A stretch of 64,000 nt of DNA from Neorhizobium sp. NCHU2750 (GTDB lineage Bacteria > Pseudomonadota > Alphaproteobacteria > Rhizobiales > Rhizobiaceae): contig NZ_CP030827.1 in the NCBI RefSeq assembly GCF_003597675.1, positions 2,294,001 through 2,358,000 of the forward strand, in the 5' to 3' direction. Below, one piece after another: positions 6,110-14,863 of the stretch. The notes beneath the pieces were generated by a model. That model ran no database searches. It was not told where the DNA came from and saw nothing but the letters and a program-made list of their open reading frames with translations. Each line of letters starts with the position of its first letter. Position 1 is the stretch's first letter. Position numbers and translations under genes: made by a program.

Positions 6110-6185
6110 GGGCCTGTAGCTCAATGGTTAGAGCCGGCGGCTCATAACCGCTTGGTTGGGGGTTCGAGTCCCTCCGGGCCCACCA
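6110..6185 (+). tRNA. tRNA with anticodon CAT (probably tRNA-Ile2, lysidine type; otherwise elongator Met)
   Basis: A complete 76-nt cloverleaf with encoded CCA. The acceptor stem GGGCCTG pairs with CGGGCCC (one T-G wobble), the D arm is GTAGCTCAATGGTTAGAGC, the anticodon loop CTCATAA gives CAT, and the T arm is GGGGGTTCGAGTCCCTC. The anticodon-stem/variable context CTCATAACCGCTTGGT resembles E. coli ileX (tRNA-Ile2, whose CAT is modified by TilS to read AUA) more than elongator tRNA-Met. Identity therefore leans to Ile2 but is not proved. Accessory DNA begins immediately after the CCA, the classic integration position for genomic islands. Confidence 0.93.
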
Positions 6186-6608
6186 ACCATTTCTAGTTCG
6201 TCAGACTCGATGATTTTTTCGTCAATTCGATTGTTCTGGCGATCGTTGTTTCCATTGAGGAAATTGAATATTTAGGGGTTTTCAGTTTCGAAATGGCTGA
6301 TCACACCAAAGGACGTTCTACATCCAGAGGCAACACACTCGAATCTCGTCGGAGTCATCAGTTTTTCCGACACTGGTTGGAATCGCTCAAAAGGTTTGTC
6401 CCTGCGGGCGCTGATATGTCCCTGACGCCTTAATAGGTTTGTCCCTGAGATCAATTCGCCTATTTTCCTCAGTTTCACCTGTGGTCGGCAGACCTGATAG
6501 CAACAAACAAACTTCCTGGAGTTTCGAGTTATAGCAGCAGCCTTAGCCGACGGCCACTCCGTGGCGTGCGGTGCATTCAATTTGATATCGAATTCACCTC
6601 ACCCCAGA
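6186..6608. other. Gene-free left margin of the island
   Basis: About 420 bp of visibly more AT-rich DNA between the tRNA 3' end and the stop codon of the ATPase gene. I see no integrase, no convincing ORF and no second copy of the tRNA 3' end within the window. The only structure is the three-copy TTTGTCCCTG array described separately. A 102-codon reverse frame here has no recognisable features. Confidence 0.6.
6393..6447 (+). repeat. Three spaced copies of GGTTTGTCCCTG
   Basis: GGTTTGTCCCTG at 6393-6404 and 6436-6447, with a degenerate copy GATATGTCCCTG at 6413-6424. The start-to-start spacing is 20 and 23 bp, close to two helical turns. Multiple short direct repeats at this spacing are typical of transposase-binding ends of IS21-type elements, so this may be the remnant of such an end; a regulator array is the alternative. 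No matching transposase gene is present nearby. Confidence 0.6.
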
Positions 6609-9242
6609 CTAAGTCAGCGTCTCGGCCTTCCGCGGAGCGGACACAGCTTTCCGCCGGATGGAGGCTACTTCGTCTCGCCTCTTTTTAAGCTCTGCGAAAT
6701 AAGTCCTGACCGTCTCAACTTCACGCTTCATATCCTCAATGGTGGGAGTGTAAGGCAACCTGCCTTTTGACCAGTCGTGACCGGATAGCTCTGAGGTCTT
6801 ACGCATGCCGAAATGTATTGTAGTGAAGTCACTGTCCCTGACCTCAACGCCGCTCAGAGACTGTGTCATTACTCCGGGCTGGAAACGGCCGACAACCCCG
6901 TTCAGAAGCATCTCCTCGACCAAGCGCTCCCAAGTCTCTCTCAGCCCAGTGAAGAAGTCGGTAACTTCACGTTCATAGGCCTCAGTATCTTTTGACGCTT
7001 GGCTGGCCATGGATGTCAGCTTGAAGTCCAGCGCCCCCAAACGGTCCTTGGTGGACTTGACTTGCCATGGCGCATCGCCGTTTCGAACTGTACCAAATCC
7101 ATGTTCTTCGGTTTTCACGATCCAATGGCGCAAGACATCGACGTGAGCCTCAATGGCTTGATGCCAGAGTTCATAATAGAAGCTCAATTCATGGGTGAAT
7201 ACGATCACCTGACGGTGCCTGGCTTCAGCCAGGATACGAGTGGCCACCTGCCGCACATGCTTATGGTCGAGTGAGGAAACGGGATCATCTAGGATCACGC
7301 CGTCATGGCCGTCGATGGAGCCGATTTCGGCGAAGAAGCACGCTAGTGACAAAGCGCGGAATTCGCCTTCGCTCAAGATATTCGAAGTCTTGGCGGAAAT
7401 CGACTTCGATAGGTCGGGCCCAACATAACTGACACCCCTATCGGTCCGTCCAGTCACGACGACAGGGAGATACGCAATGCCCAAATCGGCAATCTCTTTC
7501 TGTAGCTTCCTGCGGAAGTCTTCGGTCAGGTACTTCTCGCATAGTTCAGTATTCTTGGACGAGATCGGAGCGCTATGCCGAGAAGCGATGCATCCTGAAA
7601 GCTTCAACAAGGTGATGAGTTGGCTCCTACGCTGGAGAACTGCTGGTAGGTTGTCATGTAACTGCTTGCGTGCGCGAAGATCGCGAAGTTCGGCCCTGAG
7701 CCGGTTCAAACGCTCCGGATCAGTTGCGGCAGCTTGATCTGCCGCCGCGGACACCGCAAGCGCGCTGGCCCAGATTTCAATCTCGCTGGACTTACCTGGC
7801 TCCATCACTCCGAGGGCTGACACATCTACGAGTGCATCCGCCAACTGCGTAAGCGCAGACCGAAATTGATCAGCGGATACCAACCACTTGAGCAACTCGT
7901 TCAAGACGCTTGCTTCCGCACTGCCCTCCACGATGAAAGGCGTTAAAGCGCTGACGATTTGATCGGCCGTCGGCAGCGTCAACTGTCGTAGAGCCGATAC
8001 ATCCGAGGTCAGAGACGCTACTGCCAACTCGGCCTGCTTTGCAGCTTCGTTCGCAATGAGCGCCCGAAACTTAACGAGTCTGTCGAACGCCCCATGAGAT
8101 AGCTTCTGTGCGCATAGAGGACAAACTTCGTTGTCACCATGGGTTGGCAGTTCCGCGCCATGAAACGCATCAGCGTATACCGTGATCGCGTATCCGAACA
8201 TCTGCCTCCATGGTTCGGAACCGATCACCGTCGAAAGCGGGTCATCACGGAATTCGAGGCTAGCGGCAAGCGCCGCGGCTTCCCGCGTTGCTATACATTT
8301 CCCGATTTTAGAGTTCAGATTGGTGATCGCGTCGGCGGACAATAGGTTTTCGGCATTCACAAGCTGCTCATGTAGCGTTTTCAGAATTCCGACACCGCGT
8401 GTTTTCTCTTTGGCAAGCGCCGCCCGATCACTACGTATATCACCCTGAATCAGCTCGGTCCTCGCGTCGTCATCTAACGACCAAAGCGCGAGATTCTGAA
8501 AGGCCACCTCGCTCGGAATTGATTTCAAAGCGGTATTCTCGTTGAGCTTTCCTACTGCTTCGGCCTGAAGAGTATCTCGTTCAATGTCAGGCAGAGGACT
8601 GGCCACAATTGTCCTCAACGGCTCCATTTCGTCGTTCAGGCGTCGGCTGAGTTCCGTGCAAGCCTTGACGACCCGCGGCAGGACATCCAACCCAGCTGGA
8701 AGAAATTCGATTTTGTCTTGCTTATCAGCATACAAGGGTGCCAAGCGGCTGTCGAAGACGCTCACGCGGGACAAGGCTGGCGGAGGCGGAGCGCCCGTTT
8801 CCCATCGATGATCCTGAGCTTCGGCTTGCCCTACTTTGAAGCGTACCGTGAGGGATGGCTTGGAACGCCTGTCCGTAGAGTAGGCGTTCTCCAGTACAAC
8901 TTCGTCATTGCGTTCTCGCCGAGCGCGGCAAATTTGCTTTAAAAGCTTGCAGTAACCGCTCTTACCACTTCCGTTTTCGCCGTAGACGATCGTCAATCCA
9001 TTGACCGCGAAAGACAGCGTCTGTCCGGAGGCCAACTGCATCGCACTGCGAATATCGTGGATCGAGCCGAGCACCACAGGATCAGCTCCATCAGGCCGAT
9101 GTAAAACATGATCGGCAGCGAGCGGTGCAGGATCATTCGCGACTGTGTCGAACTCGATTCCATTTGCAGCCTTGATCATTGCCATGACCTCAATGTAGTC
9201 ACTTTCAACCAGATCAGGTTGTGTATAGATGCGCCGGAACAA
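6609..9242 (-). CDS. Zinc-hook AAA/ABC ATPase, RloC/PrrC-like putative anticodon nuclease; 5' end removed by an IS
   Basis: An 877-residue (from TTG 9242) SMC/RloC-like ATPase. In order: Walker A GENGSGKS (residues 88-95); a long helical arm with a zinc-hook CPLC at ~374-377; the second arm; ABC signature LSEGEFRALSLA (~622); Walker B VILDDPVSSLD (~647); an H-loop-like VIVFTHE. Then a ~200-residue C-terminal domain has LRETWERLVEE (Arg-x3-Glu near 768-772) and SGHDWSKG (His ~822). Arg, Glu and His are the catalytic set of PrrC/RloC tRNA anticodon nucleases, so a tRNA-cutting toxin is plausible, though spacing differs from PrrC. Coding sense continues upstream without a start to 9298 (TDDLLAFAKTRPAWEQDLF), exactly to the IS edge, so the native start is lost. 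The gene may be inactive or re-started at TTG. Confidence 0.8.
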   Translation of the reverse strand: MFRRIYTQPDLVESDYIEVMAMIKAANGIEFDTVANDPAPLAADHVLHRPDGADPVVLGSIHDIRSAMQLASGQTLSFAVNGLTIVYGENGSGKSGYCKLLKQICRARRERNDEVVLENAYSTDRRSKPSLTVRFKVGQAEAQDHRWETGAPPPPALSRVSVFDSRLAPLYADKQDKIEFLPAGLDVLPRVVKACTELSRRLNDEMEPLRTIVASPLPDIERDTLQAEAVGKLNENTALKSIPSEVAFQNLALWSLDDDARTELIQGDIRSDRAALAKEKTRGVGILKTLHEQLVNAENLLSADAITNLNSKIGKCIATREAAALAASLEFRDDPLSTVIGSEPWRQMFGYAITVYADAFHGAELPTHGDNEVCPLCAQKLSHGAFDRLVKFRALIANEAAKQAELAVASLTSDVSALRQLTLPTADQIVSALTPFIVEGSAEASVLNELLKWLVSADQFRSALTQLADALVDVSALGVMEPGKSSEIEIWASALAVSAAADQAAATDPERLNRLRAELRDLRARKQLHDNLPAVLQRRSQLITLLKLSGCIASRHSAPISSKNTELCEKYLTEDFRRKLQKEIADLGIAYLPVVVTGRTDRGVSYVGPDLSKSISAKTSNILSEGEFRALSLACFFAEIGSIDGHDGVILDDPVSSLDHKHVRQVATRILAEARHRQVIVFTHELSFYYELWHQAIEAHVDVLRHWIVKTEEHGFGTVRNGDAPWQVKSTKDRLGALDFKLTSMASQASKDTEAYEREVTDFFTGLRETWERLVEEMLLNGVVGRFQPGVMTQSLSGVEVRDSDFTTIHFGMRKTSELSGHDWSKGRLPYTPTIEDMKREVETVRTYFAELKKRRDEVASIRRKAVSAPRKAETLT

Positions 9243-9357
9243 GTCCTGCTCCCAGGCCGGCCTCGTCTTCGCAAATGCGAGCAGATCATCGGTAATGGTG
9301 ACCTGAGACCCATCGTCCCTCCAATTTTCGGGAGAGTCTTGGGTTTTAAATCTGGCC

Positions 9358-10200
9358 TTATGCGGCCTGTTTTTCCATAGCCATTTTCATTGCGAATTCG
9401 CTGGGTGTGATGTTGCCCAGTGAAGAATGCGGTCTGTTCCGATTGTAGTCCTCCTTCCATGCTGCGATTTCGCTCCTCGCCTGTGTCAGAGACGAGAACA
9501 GTGTTTCGTTGAGGCATTCGTCACGAAAGCTCCCGTTGAAGCTTTCTACGAAGCCATTCTGCATCGGCTTGCCCGGTGCGATATAATGCCATTCGACACG
9601 AGTGCTTTGGCACCATTCCAGAACGGCCATGCTGGTCATCTCCGTGCCATTGTCGGAGACAATCGTTCGCGGCGGCTTGCCTCGTCGGGCAATGACAACA
9701 TCGAGTTCCCGCGCAAGCCGCCGGCCTGAGAGCGATGTGTCGGCGACCAGCGCCAGGCATTCGCGGGTGAAGTCGTCGACGACGGCCAGAACCCGAAAGC
9801 GACGACCATCTGTGAAGGCGTCGCTGACGAAATCCAAGCTCCAGCGTTCGTTGGCACGCGAGGGCAGCGCCAGGGGGCGTCTCGTCCCCAAAGCCCGTTT
9901 GCGTCCACCACGTTTGCGCACGGTCAGCTTCTCTTCGCGATAGAGACGCCGCAGTTTCTTCAGGTTCATGATGATGCCCTGCCGACCCAGCATGACGTGA
10001 ATGCGGCGATAACCGAAACGACGGCGCTCGGACGCCACCAGCCTCATCGCCTCACGGATATCAGCGTCATCCGGTCGAATGCTACGATAGCGCACACTCG
10101 ACCGATCAACGGACAAAACCTTACACGCCCGACGCTGGCTCACCCCGTGTCGTTTGCAAACATGAGCCACAGCGTCTCGCTTCACATCGGGCGTCACCAC
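9358..10200 (-). CDS. IS3-family transposase OrfB (DDE integrase domain)
   Basis: A 280-residue rve-type transposase. An HTH_21-like N-terminal part ([14 protein letters not shown]) is followed by the catalytic core with DDE residues in [14 protein letters not shown] (D), [12 protein letters not shown] (D) and [18 protein letters not shown] (E), and the IS3 ending [18 protein letters not shown]. It overlaps orfA by 7 bp in the -1 frame. The reverse strand has A-AAA-AAG at the overlap, the classic slippery sequence, so the functional OrfAB fusion is made by programmed frameshifting. The start codon shown is a GTG. All catalytic residues are intact, so the element could be active. Confidence 0.93.
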
Positions 10201-10460
10201 TTTTTTGAAGCGACATCTTTCAGAATGGCGTTGTCCAGCATGGTCTCGGCCAGCAGCTTCTTCAGCTTGGCGTTCTCGTCTTCCAAAGCCTTCAGCTTGC
10301 GAGCATCGGATAACTCCATGCCGCCGAACTTCGCCTTGTATTTGTAGAAGGTCGCCTCGGATATCCCGTGCTTGCGGCAGACATCGGCCGTCCGCATGCC
10401 GCTTTCCTGCTCTTTCAATATCCCGATGATCTGCTCGTCCGTGAACCGTGAATGCTTCAT
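10194..10460 (-). CDS. IS3-family OrfA (HTH, DNA-binding)
   Basis: An 88-residue protein with an HTH_Tnp_1 domain ([16 protein letters not shown]..., then [20 protein letters not shown]) and a C-terminal leucine-zipper-like helix ([17 protein letters not shown]) used for multimerisation. It begins 65 bp inside the right IS end at ATG 10460. Its 3' end carries the A6G slippery run from which ribosomes shift into orfB. The sequence type is that of the IS407/IS511-like branch of the IS3 family. Confidence 0.93.
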
Positions 10461-10525
10461 TCCGTCCGTCTCCTTGATGCGACGGACTCTACCAAAATCT
10501 GGAGGAAGTTCAGGGGCTCAGGTCA

Positions 10526-10576
10526 GCACCAAAAAACGATACGATGGCCGTTGACGCCTATCTCGGTGCCCGGTAA
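10526..10576 (+). pseudogene. 3' remnant of a gene cut by the IS, possibly a LivG/LivF-type ABC ATPase
   Basis: Directly outside the right IS end, the plus strand reads ...NDTMAVDAYLGAR and then TAA. The ending AYLG preceded by an acidic/Val stretch is the usual C-terminus of branched-chain amino-acid ABC transporter ATPases (LivG/LivF). A tight terminator hairpin follows ~80 bp later, as expected behind a real gene end. The segment is only 16 codons, so the family assignment is tentative. Confidence 0.35.
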
Positions 10577-10654
10577 GTCTTAGCTCTGATCTGCGGATCA
10601 GCACCCATCTCGAATGCGCGATGAAGTCTCTTTTCTGGCCTGAGGGCCAGCACC

Positions 10655-10680
10655 AAAGGCAGGGGAAACCCTGCCTTTTT
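10655..10680 (+). terminator. Rho-independent terminator (third of three hairpins)
   Basis: AAAGGCAGGG (10655-10664), GAAA tetraloop, CCCTGCCTTT (10669-10678) and a short T-run. Two smaller perfect hairpins precede it: CTGATC-tgcg-GATCAG at 10586-10601 and CTGGCC-tgag-GGCCAG at 10635-10650. It terminates whatever plus-strand gene left the remnant at 10526 and, being A/T-ended, may also stop the reverse gene at 10697. Confidence 0.8.
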
Positions 10681-10696
10681 AGATTTTCTTGCGACC

Positions 10697-11107
10697 TCAT
10701 TTGCCCGAATCTAGAATAGCTTCATAGGCACTACGAAGCATTGCTTCTGTCGCTTCTCCAAAAACGGCCAGATTGGCCGCATGTTGGTCGGTTCCAGCGA
10801 ATTCTTCGTGCCACGACGACCGATCCGAGACGAAAACCGGGTCATCGAAATCCTCGAACTGATCGGCGGTAATATCGACAATCACCGATCCGGACTGAAG
10901 CCATGCGTGAGACCTCCCGTCACGCCATCCTAGATAGTAGCGGAAATCACCGTGCCCCAGTTCTGCGAGATGGTGTCCTAGAAGCAGGGTCGTATCCCCG
11001 CAGGCACCCTTTGGGAAATCCTGCAACGTAATCGGGAGGCTGCTTTTCTGTGTCCTCATGATGAGATCGCGGAACTGCGTGGCCGTGTCGTTGAGTTCGT
11101 CCATCAT
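10697..11107 (-). CDS. Cys-His-Asp (transglutaminase/papain-like fold) hypothetical protein
   Basis: A 136-residue protein from ATG 11107 (GGGGA four bases upstream; the next ATG at 11104 is equally possible). It shows a candidate catalytic triad in the right order: Cys in FPKGACGDTTLLLGHHLAE, His in SHAWLQSGS and Asp in VIVDITADQF. The Cys at a helix start, a His before a Trp/Leu strand and an Asp in a following strand are the pattern of small transglutaminase/NlpC-like cysteine enzymes. The open frame continues upstream but those codons look non-coding. It could be a stand-alone enzyme or an effector within the island; no partner is obvious. Confidence 0.6.
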   Translation of the reverse strand: MMDELNDTATQFRDLIMRTQKSSLPITLQDFPKGACGDTTLLLGHHLAELGHGDFRYYLGWRDGRSHAWLQSGSVIVDITADQFEDFDDPVFVSDRSSWHEEFAGTDQHAANLAVFGEATEAMLRSAYEAILDSGK

Positions 11108-11573
11108 GTTTTCCCCGAAAGCGAAGCCGGCTACTTGGCCTTTTGAACAGGAAGGCTTGTTGTCCCTGCGCTCATCTGTGAAAACTGCGTCTTTGTGGCC
11201 GAGGATGCCGAGCTCGTCGACAATTCCTTCTACCCTCATTGTTCTTTGTGTGTGAAGAACATGATTGCCTTGCTGCTGTTCTCGACTCGCTTGCAGCTTC
11301 AGAGATGCTCAGCTGCTTCTCCAGATTGCGTTCAGCGAGATGTTCTTAGCGAGCTTCATCCCGGCAAATGTCTTGTCCTTGAAACCCGCCCTTCCCCAGT
11401 GCGGAACCGTTCGAATTTTTAAAGCATCGGATTTTCCGTCCAATTTGAAGTTCGTTAAGGCCTGAGCGTCCCGTCCATTATCGCATGGGATATTATTTAT
11501 CATCGTTGGAACTTGTCACTTTACGTCTCACTTTACATAGTTATATCGTAGGCCTGCCAACCACGGATGAAAC
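11108..11573. other. Non-coding or degraded island segment
   Basis: 466 bp without a gene I can support. A 64-codon reverse ORF (11309-11503) in the same frame as the downstream Cys-His-Asp gene, and an overlapping alternative frame rich in Glu/Lys/Leu near 11280-11340, may be leftovers of a longer reverse gene broken by frameshifts. Just before the plus-strand cassette there is a direct repeat CACTTTAC(G/A)T around 11517-11539, with TTGTCA at 11513-11518 as a possible -35. Confidence 0.4.
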
Positions 11574-12362
11574 ATGACCGCCGAAATCGTCAATCCGCTA
11601 TTTTCGAACGAGTTGCCCGAAGTGCCACTGACCAACGCTCCTTTGGCGCGCGTTGTGGCGCAGGTGCGCTTCCCTGCTATCCAGTCAATTCAGGATCAGG
11701 TGTTCGTTGGCAAGTTCCAGGAAGCGATTAGAAGTTTGTATCCGCGTCCCCGCAAGGATGTGATGAACGGGTTCGTGCTCGGTACCCCCACAATGGTTTC
11801 GTCAATCATCTGGCGCTACCTGGATCAGGAAGCGCAATGGATCGTATCGCTTTCGGATAATTTCTTATCATTCGAAACGGTCAAGTACACGTCCCGCAAG
11901 GATTTTACCGACCGCTTCGGATTTCTTCTCGAAAAGCTCGCGGAGACGATCGGTCCGACACATTCGGACCGGATCGGGATACGGTACGTGGACCAGGTAT
12001 CGCTTTCAGAAGACGAAAGCATGGCCGGCATGCTTCGAACGGAGATGATCGGCGTGAAGGAAGTTTTCGGCAAGACGCACCATATGATCTCAGAACTCGA
12101 AGGCCCCTCGCAAGAGGGCGGAGTCCTGGTGCGTTGGGGGCATATGCCCGAGAACGCCTCGCACGACCCAGACATCATGACACCTGTCAGCACGCCGTCG
12201 TGGTTTCTGGATGTGGACTCGTACAAGTCCTACGAATCTGAGAGCATGGCCTTCAATCCAGCGGCGCTGTCGGCGTTGACCTATCAGCTTGCCACGCGGG
12301 CATATACTATTTTCAGGTGGTCGGTGACGGATAAATTCCTTGACCGCTACGGGAGAAAATAA
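11574..12362 (+). CDS. TIGR04255-family protein, first gene of a three-gene cassette
   Basis: A 262-residue soluble protein. The opening LPEVPLTNAPLARVVAQVRF (an apolar-proline-asparagine stretch leading into a first beta strand ending in RF) and the later RIGIRYVDQVSL match what I know of the sporadically distributed TIGR04255 family, proteins of unknown function found mostly in accessory regions. The C-terminal part ends in a helical region (LSALTYQLATRAYTIFRWSV). There is no signal peptide, membrane segment or obvious catalytic motif. Its stop is immediately followed by the ATG of the next gene (TAAATG), so expression is coupled. Family call is from memory of the family pattern, not a search. 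Confidence 0.7.
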   Translation: MTAEIVNPLFSNELPEVPLTNAPLARVVAQVRFPAIQSIQDQVFVGKFQEAIRSLYPRPRKDVMNGFVLGTPTMVSSIIWRYLDQEAQWIVSLSDNFLSFETVKYTSRKDFTDRFGFLLEKLAETIGPTHSDRIGIRYVDQVSLSEDESMAGMLRTEMIGVKEVFGKTHHMISELEGPSQEGGVLVRWGHMPENASHDPDIMTPVSTPSWFLDVDSYKSYESESMAFNPAALSALTYQLATRAYTIFRWSVTDKFLDRYGRK

Positions 12363-12998
12363 ATGACGACTCATCGCAAGTTCTCTTCATCAGGGACGAG
12401 CCACTCTGGATTCGGCGACCGTCTCGACTTCATGTACTTGCGTCGCCATCAGGGCTTCAGAGCCTCGTCGCCGACGACGTCCACATTGCTCGACATGCAG
12501 CGCACCGAGACCGACGAGGAGCGCTTGGAGTTAGCTGCCCAGTCGGCAACCTTCATCACCCAGATTGGCCAGCTCAAGATGATGACCGGGTATACCTGGG
12601 ATCGTCTGGCAGAGCTCCTCAGTTGCTCGCGACAGTCACTGTACAACTGGCGCGACGGATTGACGGTCACGGACGCGAACATCCGCGCCGTCCAGCGCAT
12701 GCACGAGGCACTCGCGTTTATTGACCGGGGTGACCCCACTGAGACGAGGGCAGTGCTTGAGGCAAACGGCGCGCTGGTATTCAAGACGCTCAAGGGCGGC
12801 GACCTAGAGGAGGGTAAGCGGCTGGCCGGGAAGGGAAGCGGTTCAACTCACGGTCGGCCGCCACCTCTTGTCAACGGCGCTCGCCAGCTACAAGATCATT
12901 GGACTGACCGCATCGCGGCGTCGTCCGATGATCCCCTCGAGAATGGAGGGTTCAAGCCTCGGAAGACTTCGCGACGCGGACCTCCCCGCACCAAGTAG
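12363..12998 (+). CDS. HTH protein, second gene of the cassette
   Basis: A 211-residue protein. Residues ~75-95 (TWDRLAELLSCSRQSLYNWR) form a convincing helix-turn-helix. It is followed by TDANIRAVQRMHEALAFIDR and TETRAVLEANGALVFKTLKGGD, a layout reminiscent of Xre/MbcA-type antitoxins in which an HTH precedes a compact helical domain. The first 45 residues and the last 60 (Gly/Pro/Arg/Lys-rich) look disordered. It starts without gap after the TIGR04255 stop and is followed after 8 bp by the third gene, so it could autoregulate the cassette or act as an antitoxin or DNA-targeting subunit. I do not recognise a named family. Confidence 0.65.
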   Translation: MTTHRKFSSSGTSHSGFGDRLDFMYLRRHQGFRASSPTTSTLLDMQRTETDEERLELAAQSATFITQIGQLKMMTGYTWDRLAELLSCSRQSLYNWRDGLTVTDANIRAVQRMHEALAFIDRGDPTETRAVLEANGALVFKTLKGGDLEEGKRLAGKGSGSTHGRPPPLVNGARQLQDHWTDRIAASSDDPLENGGFKPRKTSRRGPPRTK

Positions 12999-13006
12999 AA
13001 GACTTC

Positions 13007-13849
13007 ATGGCCGAAAACAACGAACCGAACGCCGAACTTGAGGAACTGAGAGCGGCGCTCGCACCTTGGAGGCAAGGTGACTTCACGATCTCCACGGGTG
13101 AGTTTCCCGTCGCGTTCCTCAATGAGAACGATGTCATTGAGACTGGATGGGATTCGGTGCAAGGTTTGGTAGTGGTGAGCCAGACCTGTGACATAGTCAA
13201 TGCGATGGACCTCGATGATGTCGTTGTCGTCGCACCGATCGTGGAGGTGACCGAGGGTCTGCTCGAGTCCATCAAATTCGGAACTACAACCGTCGGCGCG
13301 GTCATCGAGAACTCGCTCCTGCCAACCGATGTCGCAGACCTGAGGTTTCTAGCGACCATCCGCAAGACCTCGCTGGTCAAGATGGAGCGCAAGGAAGGCT
13401 TTAGCTCTGAGCAGACGAGAGATGTGTTCGTCAACGCTCTTGAGCGTCGATACGGACGCTTCGCGTTTCCTGATGCGCTTAGCAACGGTCCAGTGATAAC
13501 GATCAGGAACAGGGCGAAGAGTCTGAGGAAGAAGGACTCTCCTAATGCCAAGGTTTACAAGTCGCTACGCTCTGTTCGGCTCGCAGCAGACCCTGATTTC
13601 GATACCCCTGGGGCAAGAATCCAGTTCCTTCTAGTCCTGAACGATCCGCCTCACGTCTTTGCCCAACCTCAGGACATCATCGCAGAACTCAAAAGCCAGG
13701 AGATCGCTGAACGCTTCAACTGGCCACCGGTTTTCGAGAAGGAAACCCCTTTGTTCCGCGTTGTTACCATGGATAGCCTGTCGGCACGGGAATGGGACGG
13801 CAGCCGCCATGTCGACCTCGACTTCATCTCATGGCGGAGTGAGACGTAG
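13007..13849 (+). CDS. Hypothetical protein with SQTCDI motif, third gene of the cassette
   Basis: A 280-residue soluble protein that I cannot assign. Notable features are a WRQGDFTIS opening after ~24 residues, the block GLVVVSQTCDIVNAMDLDDV near residue 60, a middle segment VFVNALERRYGRFAFPDAL, and a C-terminal VDLDFISWRSET. The strand-SQxCDI arrangement, with a Gln, Cys and Asp at the end of a hydrophobic strand, recurs in uncharacterised proteins of accessory loci and may be an active or metal-binding site. Start ATG 13007 lies 8 bp after the HTH gene. No signal peptide or membrane segment. Confidence 0.6.
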   Translation: MAENNEPNAELEELRAALAPWRQGDFTISTGEFPVAFLNENDVIETGWDSVQGLVVVSQTCDIVNAMDLDDVVVVAPIVEVTEGLLESIKFGTTTVGAVIENSLLPTDVADLRFLATIRKTSLVKMERKEGFSSEQTRDVFVNALERRYGRFAFPDALSNGPVITIRNRAKSLRKKDSPNAKVYKSLRSVRLAADPDFDTPGARIQFLLVLNDPPHVFAQPQDIIAELKSQEIAERFNWPPVFEKETPLFRVVTMDSLSAREWDGSRHVDLDFISWRSET

Positions 13850-13939
13850 CGGTCCCGCCAGTCGTCTCCATCGTTGATGGGGGCATCCTCCCAAGCCTGC
13901 ATCAGCCGAATAACGAATTCGAGCATTGGCAGCCGAAAG

Positions 13940-14062
13940 CTATTCGGGAAGCTCTTTCCATTCTCCCCCGGCTCGTTTCTCAATGATCTGGCCGATCTCC
14001 TTGAGGCTTTCCTCGGCCCGATAACCGAGGTCTTCGTCGACAAGGAAATTCGGAACACCCAT
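13940..14062 (-). pseudogene. Small reverse ORF or 3' gene remnant (40 codons)
   Basis: From ATG 14062 the reverse strand encodes MGVPNFLVDEDLGYRAEESL, then an amphipathic helix and an ending GGEWKELPE. Coding sense extends further upstream in frame (EFDERLQQYSDRHC...) to a stop without another start codon, so it is more likely the C-terminal part of a decayed gene than an intact small protein. The composition is protein-like; the family is unknown. Confidence 0.35.
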
Positions 14063-14237
14063 ACAGTGTCGGTCCGAATACTGCTGTAGCCTTTCGTCAA
14101 ATTCCGGTCGCGTCTCTTCGCTCTTCGAAGGCGCGGCTGACCGTTGTTACGTATTCATCTACAATCGTCGGGCCGTATTTCATCGGCCGTAACTCGCGTT
14201 GGGAGTGCGTAAAGTCGCGCTCAACGGCCAGGATTAT

Positions 14238-14357
14238 CGAATGTGAGAAAAGGGGGCTTCGGGAGCAACGAATGTGACGACAGCGGCAACCGATGGTGAC
14301 GACAGATCATCGAAAAATCAATGTTTTCAGAAGCACGAAAATCGTCGAATGTGACGA
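14238..14357 (+). repeat. Four direct repeats of CGAATGTGACGA
   Basis: CGAATGTGAG (14238), CGAATGTGACGA (14269), CGATGGTGACGA (14291) and CGAATGTGACGA (14346). Two copies are identical 12-mers and two are degenerate; start-to-start spacing is 31, 22 and 55 bp. Arrays like this occur at ends of IS21-type elements or as binding arrays. It marks the right margin of the island as the TTTGTCCCTG array marks the left, but the repeat units are different. Confidence 0.6.
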
Positions 14358-14689
14358 GCTATACCATTTCAAATAGTTGCTGAAGAATTTGCGGTTCTCG
14401 CAACCATCGAAGCAATATGGGCTCTTTCGGCGCCGTTGCTTAAGATTGGTTGCAAGATCTATCCGGAGCCGAATCTTGAAACGCTCTCCTTATCGCAACC
14501 GGAGCGGAGGTCGGGTCCGTCAGGCCACTCTGCGCCACTTTACTCCAGTATCATTTTATCGGGCATTCGCCGAAGGTCGCGACCGGAAGTGTCCGCGACC
14601 TCAATCCGGCTTCACGGCTGCCGGCCATTGACTTCCATCCGCCGCATGTCACCCTCGCACTAAGGTGAAACCCAGGCGGAGAAATCGTA

Positions 14690-14863
14690 ATGGCGGCAGG
14701 GGAGACAGCGGCGGAATTGAGCAGCGACATCGTTGCCAAGCTTTCGGATGCGATCGAAAATCTGGATGCGGTCCCCTCGGACGACATGCTCGTCCTCCTC
14801 AACGAAGCCCTCGATGTGATCCGCGAACTGGTTGAGATGAACGATGCCGTGAGCCTCGAATAG
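14690..14863 (+). CDS. Small acidic helical protein, function unknown
   Basis: A 57-residue protein starting at ATG 14690, preceded by GGCGGAGAAATCGTA, which contains a good GGAG ribosome site. The sequence is almost all amphipathic helix (ELSSDIVAKLSDAIENLD, then DDMLVLLNEALDVIRELVEM) with low pI, suggesting a small coiled-coil or adaptor protein. It is the first gene right of the island and lies convergent to the DUF930 gene with 33 bp between the stops. Codon use looks like the core genes. Confidence 0.7.
   Translation: MAAGETAAELSSDIVAKLSDAIENLDAVPSDDMLVLLNEALDVIRELVEMNDAVSLE

Follow-up and report, generated by a model that had tools for sequence, protein, structure and literature searches.

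A three-gene cassette of Neorhizobium sp. NCHU2750 is, with a probability that we put at about 0.55, a tripartite toxin–antitoxin-like conflict module, most likely directed against phage. The cassette lies in a 64,000-nucleotide stretch of contig NZ_CP030827.1 (positions 2,294,001 to 2,358,000; assembly GCF_003597675.1), called the window below, and encodes a TIGR04255 family protein (gene 1), a helix-turn-helix (HTH) protein (gene 2) and a protein with an SQTCDI motif (gene 3). Our computations establish that the three genes co-occur in a fixed order and diverge together, that the two downstream genes are swapped as pairs, that gene 3 has a predicted MazF fold with an altered site, and that triads are present on phages and plasmids.

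Co-inheritance of the trio and exchange of its downstream genes

Scanning of species genomes gave 111 confirmed gene-3 loci; 80 were kept, and every one of these was examined. Loci were scored as trios when TIGR04255, HTH and SQTCDI genes followed one another in that order on one strand with gaps of <400 bases. Of the 80 loci, 68 have this order, and all three genes are carried by every plasmid (3/3) and viral-contig (3/3) locus inspected, so that the co-occurrence in other genomes on which the preliminary description had staked its case is borne out. The tight same-strand packing noted there is equally clear. In the window, the TAA of gene 1 (12360–12362) directly abuts the ATG of gene 2 (12363) and an 8-base gap (12999–13006) precedes gene 3, all on the + strand; the commonest gene 1/gene 2 junction in trios is a 4-base overlap. 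Pairwise protein distances are correlated among the genes, with Mantel r values of 0.885, 0.869 and 0.896 for 69 triads (the 68 plus the window) and permutation maxima <0.30. The gene-3 tree covers seven phylum groups, and on it the Pseudomonadota label must change at least four times. Gene 3 is found in five of 199 genomes of the window's family (its own included), two of these being solitary partial copies. Conserved order, co-divergence, spread across phyla and sporadic presence argue that the trio is an inherited and probably transferable unit.

The alignments include A1 (the window plus 45 of 120 listed homologues, from 351 found), A3 (the window plus 54 loci) and A4 (the window plus 47 of the 80 loci). 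Separately from the trios, gene 3 was seen alone or incomplete, with neither partner beside it, at L004, L018, L054, L171 and L172; these copies may be decaying remnants.

TIGR04255 was detected in 30 of the 398 genomes sampled from the phylum and in 20 of the 385 from the class, the window's own genome being counted in each. All 51 distinct non-window matches from these phylum and class searches were fetched with their flanks. Two further short same-strand genes directly follow TIGR04255 in 43 of the 51 loci, compared with 10 of 71 control genes scored under a slightly stricter rule (length limits of 285 and 340 amino acids (aa) for the control and none for the test loci, whose longest proteins are 283 and 332 aa). 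The gene 2 and gene 3 families of these 43 triads were seeded by eye. For gene 3 they comprise 23 'NPxH' proteins, seven relatives of the window type, five short QGD/SNTCD proteins, three that we take to be papain-like and two that we take to be HEPN-like (tentative labels), one true PemK (PF02452, 67.9 bits, above the Pfam cut-off) and two unassigned proteins. Some of the loci behind the profile match of the window-type relatives (E 3.5e-43) closely resemble A4 rows; when only the five divergent relatives are used, they match the window profile with 97% probability and an E value of 9.3e-11. The short QGD/SNTCD proteins match window-type gene 3 with 84% probability (E 7.1e-6).

The pairing of gene 2 with gene 3 was examined by leave-one-out comparison in 40 loci of five gene-3 classes, three of the 43 being excluded as without class. 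Gene 2 found its best match in its own class in 40/40 cases (39 below E 1e-3), and other classes never scored below E 1e-3; gene 3 likewise matched its own class best in 40/40. Among the window-type triads, gene 2 is of the HTH kind in 7/7 by leave-one-out and in 5/7 directly by the window-type model. One locus, L209, has an NPxH-class gene 2 beside a gene 3 without class. By these sequence comparisons, gene 1 is constant and cognate gene 2/gene 3 pairs are exchanged.

Individual loci illustrate this range. At L145 (8001–9358), the TIGR04255 gene is followed by a 95-aa gene and the PemK above the Pfam cut-off, and the genes upstream are, judged by eye, presumably of PglZ/BREX type. The TIGR04255 trios L141, L142 and L195 have a gene 3 with a GLTCATF motif, papain-like by eye, and that of L141 matches phrog_11836.

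Predicted properties of the three proteins

The family assigned to gene 1 at the outset is upheld by a match to NCBIfam TIGR04255 of 123.1 bits (E 1.6e-35, cut-off 30 bits). Its AlphaFold2 model is confident (pLDDT 94.6), and no clear solved relative or fold was found for this model, the best structure matches being at noise level. The trio proteins of the window otherwise have no match over cut-off in Pfam, NCBIfam or PADLOC; in particular, neither they nor the relatives scanned match a metabolic family above its cut-off, as the preliminary description had anticipated.

The block GLVVVSQTCDI in gene 3, which had looked conserved from the single sequence, is so across the family: QTCD is identical in 48/48 aligned rows, window included. 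The same 48/48 rows share a polar set formed by Q23, D25, Q59, T60, C61, D62, K120 and R191. Homologues number 351 when the search starts from the window sequence and 2538 at E≤0.001 when it starts from a diverse alignment (among 8000 candidates scored); the 120 listed for each search carry the source names 'hypothetical' or 'uncharacterized' protein. Gene 3 matches no Pfam family at E≤1 and has no sequence match in the PDB, and its only NCBIfam and PADLOC matches, CmoB (E 0.17) and HEC-01A (E 0.05), are at chance level. At E≤0.5, the 46 rows of A1 together match 11 families, and PF02452 is none of these. The N-terminal part of gene 3 is predicted to adopt the MazF/Kid fold, and the top BFVD match is to a PemK-like protein from phage (E 4e-3).

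For gene 2, the original assignment survives in part. The HTH is supported, below Pfam cut-offs, by a best match to HTH_23 (E 0.0014), the Xre-like affinity is weakly supported, and the proposed MbcA layout is not upheld. Among the relatives, PF20432 (Xre-like-HTH) is matched below threshold in 5/10 of those scanned, and HTH_3 exceeds its cut-off in L014 and L146. The first 60 residues of gene 2, counted from longest open reading frame (ORF) starts, have Ser/Thr contents of 0.194 versus 0.134 (n = 69) and 0.189 versus 0.132 (n = 43). This N-terminal enrichment is seen for gene 2, not gene 3, and fits a flexible tail.

Genomic setting

The cassette lies in a tRNA-linked island (Table 1), in agreement with the preliminary description. 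The bases matching window positions 6185 and 14712 are separated by only 129 bp in the relative G945 (locus L237), and thus ∼8.4 kb has been inserted in the window. The GC content of the island is 0.53–0.57, against about 0.60–0.64 around it. Because the spacing of the same two flanks varies, being about 4 kb in G938 and about 41 kb in G935, the tRNA-Met site is suggested to be an insertion hot spot.

Table 1. Positions in the window of the cassette genes, their segments and the surrounding island
Feature	Position	Strand	Basis
Gene 1, TIGR04255 family protein, 262 aa, constant component	11574..12362	+	NCBIfam match
Gene 2, helix-turn-helix protein, 211 aa, proposed antitoxin/repressor	12363..12998	+	Sub-threshold HTH matches; relatives above or near cut-off
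HTH segment of gene 2, residues 76-98	12588..12656	+	HTH_23 match; many invariant columns in alignment A2
Gene 3, SQTCDI protein, 280 aa, proposed effector	13007..13849	+	Homologue family without Pfam match
MazF/Kid-fold domain of gene 3, residues 19-152, predicted	13061..13462	+	
QTCD block, gene 3 residues 59-62	13181..13192	+	48/48 rows identical
tRNA-Met (cat), island attachment side	6110..6185	+	tRNA call; empty site in L237
Accessory island holding the cassette, absent in relative G945	6186..14711	.	Flank spacing in L237 and GC

The large ATPase that had been noticed beside the cassette is confirmed as ORF 6609–9242 (−), an 877-aa AAA_13-type protein in the same island with a nearly full-length match (E 1.3e-162) to PDC-S06, a candidate single-gene defence system of PADLOC. 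The island also contains an IS3-type transposase gene pair (9358–10460, −) and a 180-aa ORF (10697–11239, −) with just a weak YunG hint (E 0.04). Downstream of the cassette, at 14238–14360, are four copies of short repeats of the kind CGAATGTGACGACAG, with a spacing of 22–55 bases.

Gene 3 is matched in 6 of 72,556 plasmid records, five of the six typed conjugative. The three plasmid loci inspected are complete trios by our models, and their annotations read 'TIGR04255 family protein' and 'hypothetical protein'; at one, L236, the annotation table has no entry for the middle gene. Complete trios are also found on three IMG/VR viral contigs. In Pseudomonas phage VW-6S, a trio (TIGR04255 E 6.7e-20; gene 2 annotated at 46 aa) lies between the CI repressor and integrase genes, and in the P2-like phage Dobby a TIGR04255 trio lies between the integrase and portal genes. 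These placements resemble published defence hotspots, which passages of PMC9122126 place, for P2-like phages, between gpA and the portal gene gpQ and, for a P2-related phage of Vibrionaceae, between cI and integrase. The TIGR04255 frames of Dobby and VW-6S (L241 1090–1854 and L240 2927–3679) are longer than annotated, the annotated starts being late. In Leptospira phage LnoZ_CZ214 (L242 2913–4606), the same three-gene layout has a QGD/SASCD gene 3 and a gene 1 that does not match TIGR04255; this gene 1 may represent a further constant-subunit family.

Neighbours were surveyed as the 119 genes ≥150 aa within 3 kb that lie nearest to the 68 trios (PADLOC, E≤1e-10). They match 136 PADLOC families, the 25 most frequent of which include AriA (three), AbiLi (two), PDC-S03 (two), PglW, JetA, DruE, a type I REase and NucC, together with mad3, mad8 and methyltransferases. 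The control, 101 genes from 19 arbitrary stretches, matches 24 families, which without exception are models for mad3, mad8 or methyltransferases. Because PADLOC counts by family, so that some labels may be one gene, and because 25 of the 136 families are covered, the defence counts cannot be itemized per gene.

A proposed conflict module and its alternatives

In the mechanism that we favour, gene 3 would be the effector, its N-terminal MazF/Kid-fold domain bearing a non-canonical site (W-QGD ... QTCD ... K) and being joined to an extra C-terminal part. Gene 2, encoded upstream, would be the cognate antitoxin and operon repressor that keeps the effector off. TIGR04255 would serve as a constant third subunit that stabilizes or senses via gene 2, perhaps through the Ser/Thr-rich N-terminal tail, in a role likened to that of the SecB-like chaperones of toxin–antitoxin–chaperone (TAC) systems, and the effector would be released upon infection or upon loss of the third subunit. 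Toxicity, neutralization, the trigger, the anti-phage effect and the gene-by-gene roles are inferred, as is a working toxin–antitoxin or defence system. The toxin–antitoxin or defence interpretation of the preliminary description gains indirect support from the predicted MazF-like fold of gene 3, from matches of some immediate neighbours to defence families and from the triads on phages and plasmids.

The cassette differs from each of the known systems that it recalls. Like MazEF/PemIK (Kid) type II modules, it has closely packed genes, a DNA-binding-type partner upstream and a predicted MazF/Kid fold in gene 3. Unlike them, it has a third gene, an HTH partner in place of a recognized MazE family, a QTCD block where the catalytic Arg and Thr are not apparent, an extra C-terminal part and no profile similarity. 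TAC systems such as CmdTAC and MqsRAC, described in passages of PMC9519451 as a SecB-like chaperone joined to unrelated toxin–antitoxin pairs and conferring phage protection, resemble the cassette in their three-gene make-up, in the use of one constant component with unrelated pairs and in a low-complexity tail, putative in the cassette, on the middle protein; the cassette departs from them in that its constant gene is TIGR04255, comes first and has no clear SecB-like fold match, and in that the tail is N-terminal. Xre/RES toxin–antitoxin pairs are approached by the gene 2 HTH, with its sub-threshold PF20432 matches, but there is no RES match in genes 1–3 at E≤1 and the effector is predicted to be MazF-fold. 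The neighbouring PDC-S06 gene, also a defence candidate in the island, is on the opposite strand with IS3 and another ORF between, and lies outside the cassette. PADLOC 2.0.0 (2023) has no model for the trio, HEC-01A being its sole match at E≤1, and the terms 'TIGR04255' and 'SQTCD' are absent from the main text of open-access PMC papers under CC0, CC BY and CC BY-SA licences.

Several results weigh against a conflict module of this kind. The MazF catalytic residues, a catalytic Arg (RPxL) and Thr (PIT) according to passages of PMC7354611, seem absent from gene 3: residue 52 is R in 7/48 rows and residue 79 is Thr in 0/48, compared with R in 20/24 and T in 20/24 of a PemK comparison set, the equivalence of positions being taken from hand and low-confidence profile alignment. 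RNase activity is therefore not to be assumed for gene 3. Profile comparison (hhalign) with MazF yields a probability of only 0.1–1.4%, which indicates no sequence homology, and the TIGR04255 model has no chaperone-like fold match above noise level. The full triad is absent in 12 of the 80 loci; TIGR04255 is found in three of these, the HTH gene in six and neither in five (L004, L018, L037, L054 and L056), of which L037 and L056 begin <100 bases from a contig end and L004, L018 and L054 are inside contigs and solitary-looking, L018 being broken. The layout rule does not hold at eight of the 51 TIGR04255 loci (L148, L156 (edge), L159, L197 (edge), L203, L206 (stop inside), L211 and L214 (fragment)), and gene 2 was recognized as an HTH gene in only 7 of the 43 wider triads. 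The Ser/Thr signal is measured from longest-ORF starts, and the small classes A, B and F do not reach significance on their own. Phage carriage is rare, with type-B gene 3 in 5 of 50,697 phage records. Finally, the neighbour control is small, mostly alphaproteobacterial and without taxon matching, the trio flanks share its mad3, mad8 and methyltransferase models, and they also hold ordinary metabolic genes (Pfam).

A broader proposal, which we advance tentatively and at somewhat under even odds, is that an undescribed, modular platform for defence is built around TIGR04255 as its constant core, an invariant sensor or chaperone combined with interchangeable pairs; the platform would be spread across many phyla and hotspot-like sites of temperate phages, with QTCD as a new, non-MazF active site on a MazF fold. 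Its pairs would be an HTH protein with the MazF-fold QTCD effector, a small hydrophobic protein with a QGD/SNTCD effector, a 'WDG' protein with an 'NPxH' effector, and papain-like and HEPN-like effectors.

Of the competing explanations, the one that survives best, though we regard it as unlikely, holds that the cassette makes a complex for defence or regulation with no conventional toxin: the MazF-fold protein would bind as a scaffold or sensor without catalysis, and the HTH protein would do no more than regulate transcription. The invariant polar set looks like a site under selection, and the PemK of one sister triad is above the Pfam cut-off; both speak against a mere scaffold. Next, and also unlikely, comes pure addiction, in which a selfish toxin–antitoxin-like triad would maintain plasmids, phages or islands with no anti-phage role. 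Sporadic triads on largely conjugative plasmids, on phages and in a tRNA island would suit such an element, but gene 3 is found in very few plasmid records, its phage placement is like that of known defence hotspots, and simple addiction should need no constant third gene. An accessory metabolic or stress operon that plays no part in genetic conflict, and in which TIGR04255 would be an enzyme acting on small molecules, is improbable: the fold hints that favour it (AdoMetDC, spermine synthase and guanidino kinases) are at noise level, the partner genes swap, the triads travel on phages and plasmids and the three genes are without a metabolic family above cut-off. Islands do gather unrelated cargo, but three genes brought together by chance is a negligible prospect and is rejected, because 68 of the 80 fetched loci repeat the gene order, with Mantel r values of 0.87–0.90.

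The question is open to direct test with cassettes in laboratory E. coli. If the conflict-module reading is true, a role would emerge for TIGR04255, a family described as 'sporadic', and for thousands of proteins without a name, and the MazF fold would be seen to bear a different conserved site. A single constant protein with swappable pairs would then constitute a second TAC-like platform, and the gene-3 slot would serve as a finder for new bacterial effectors.
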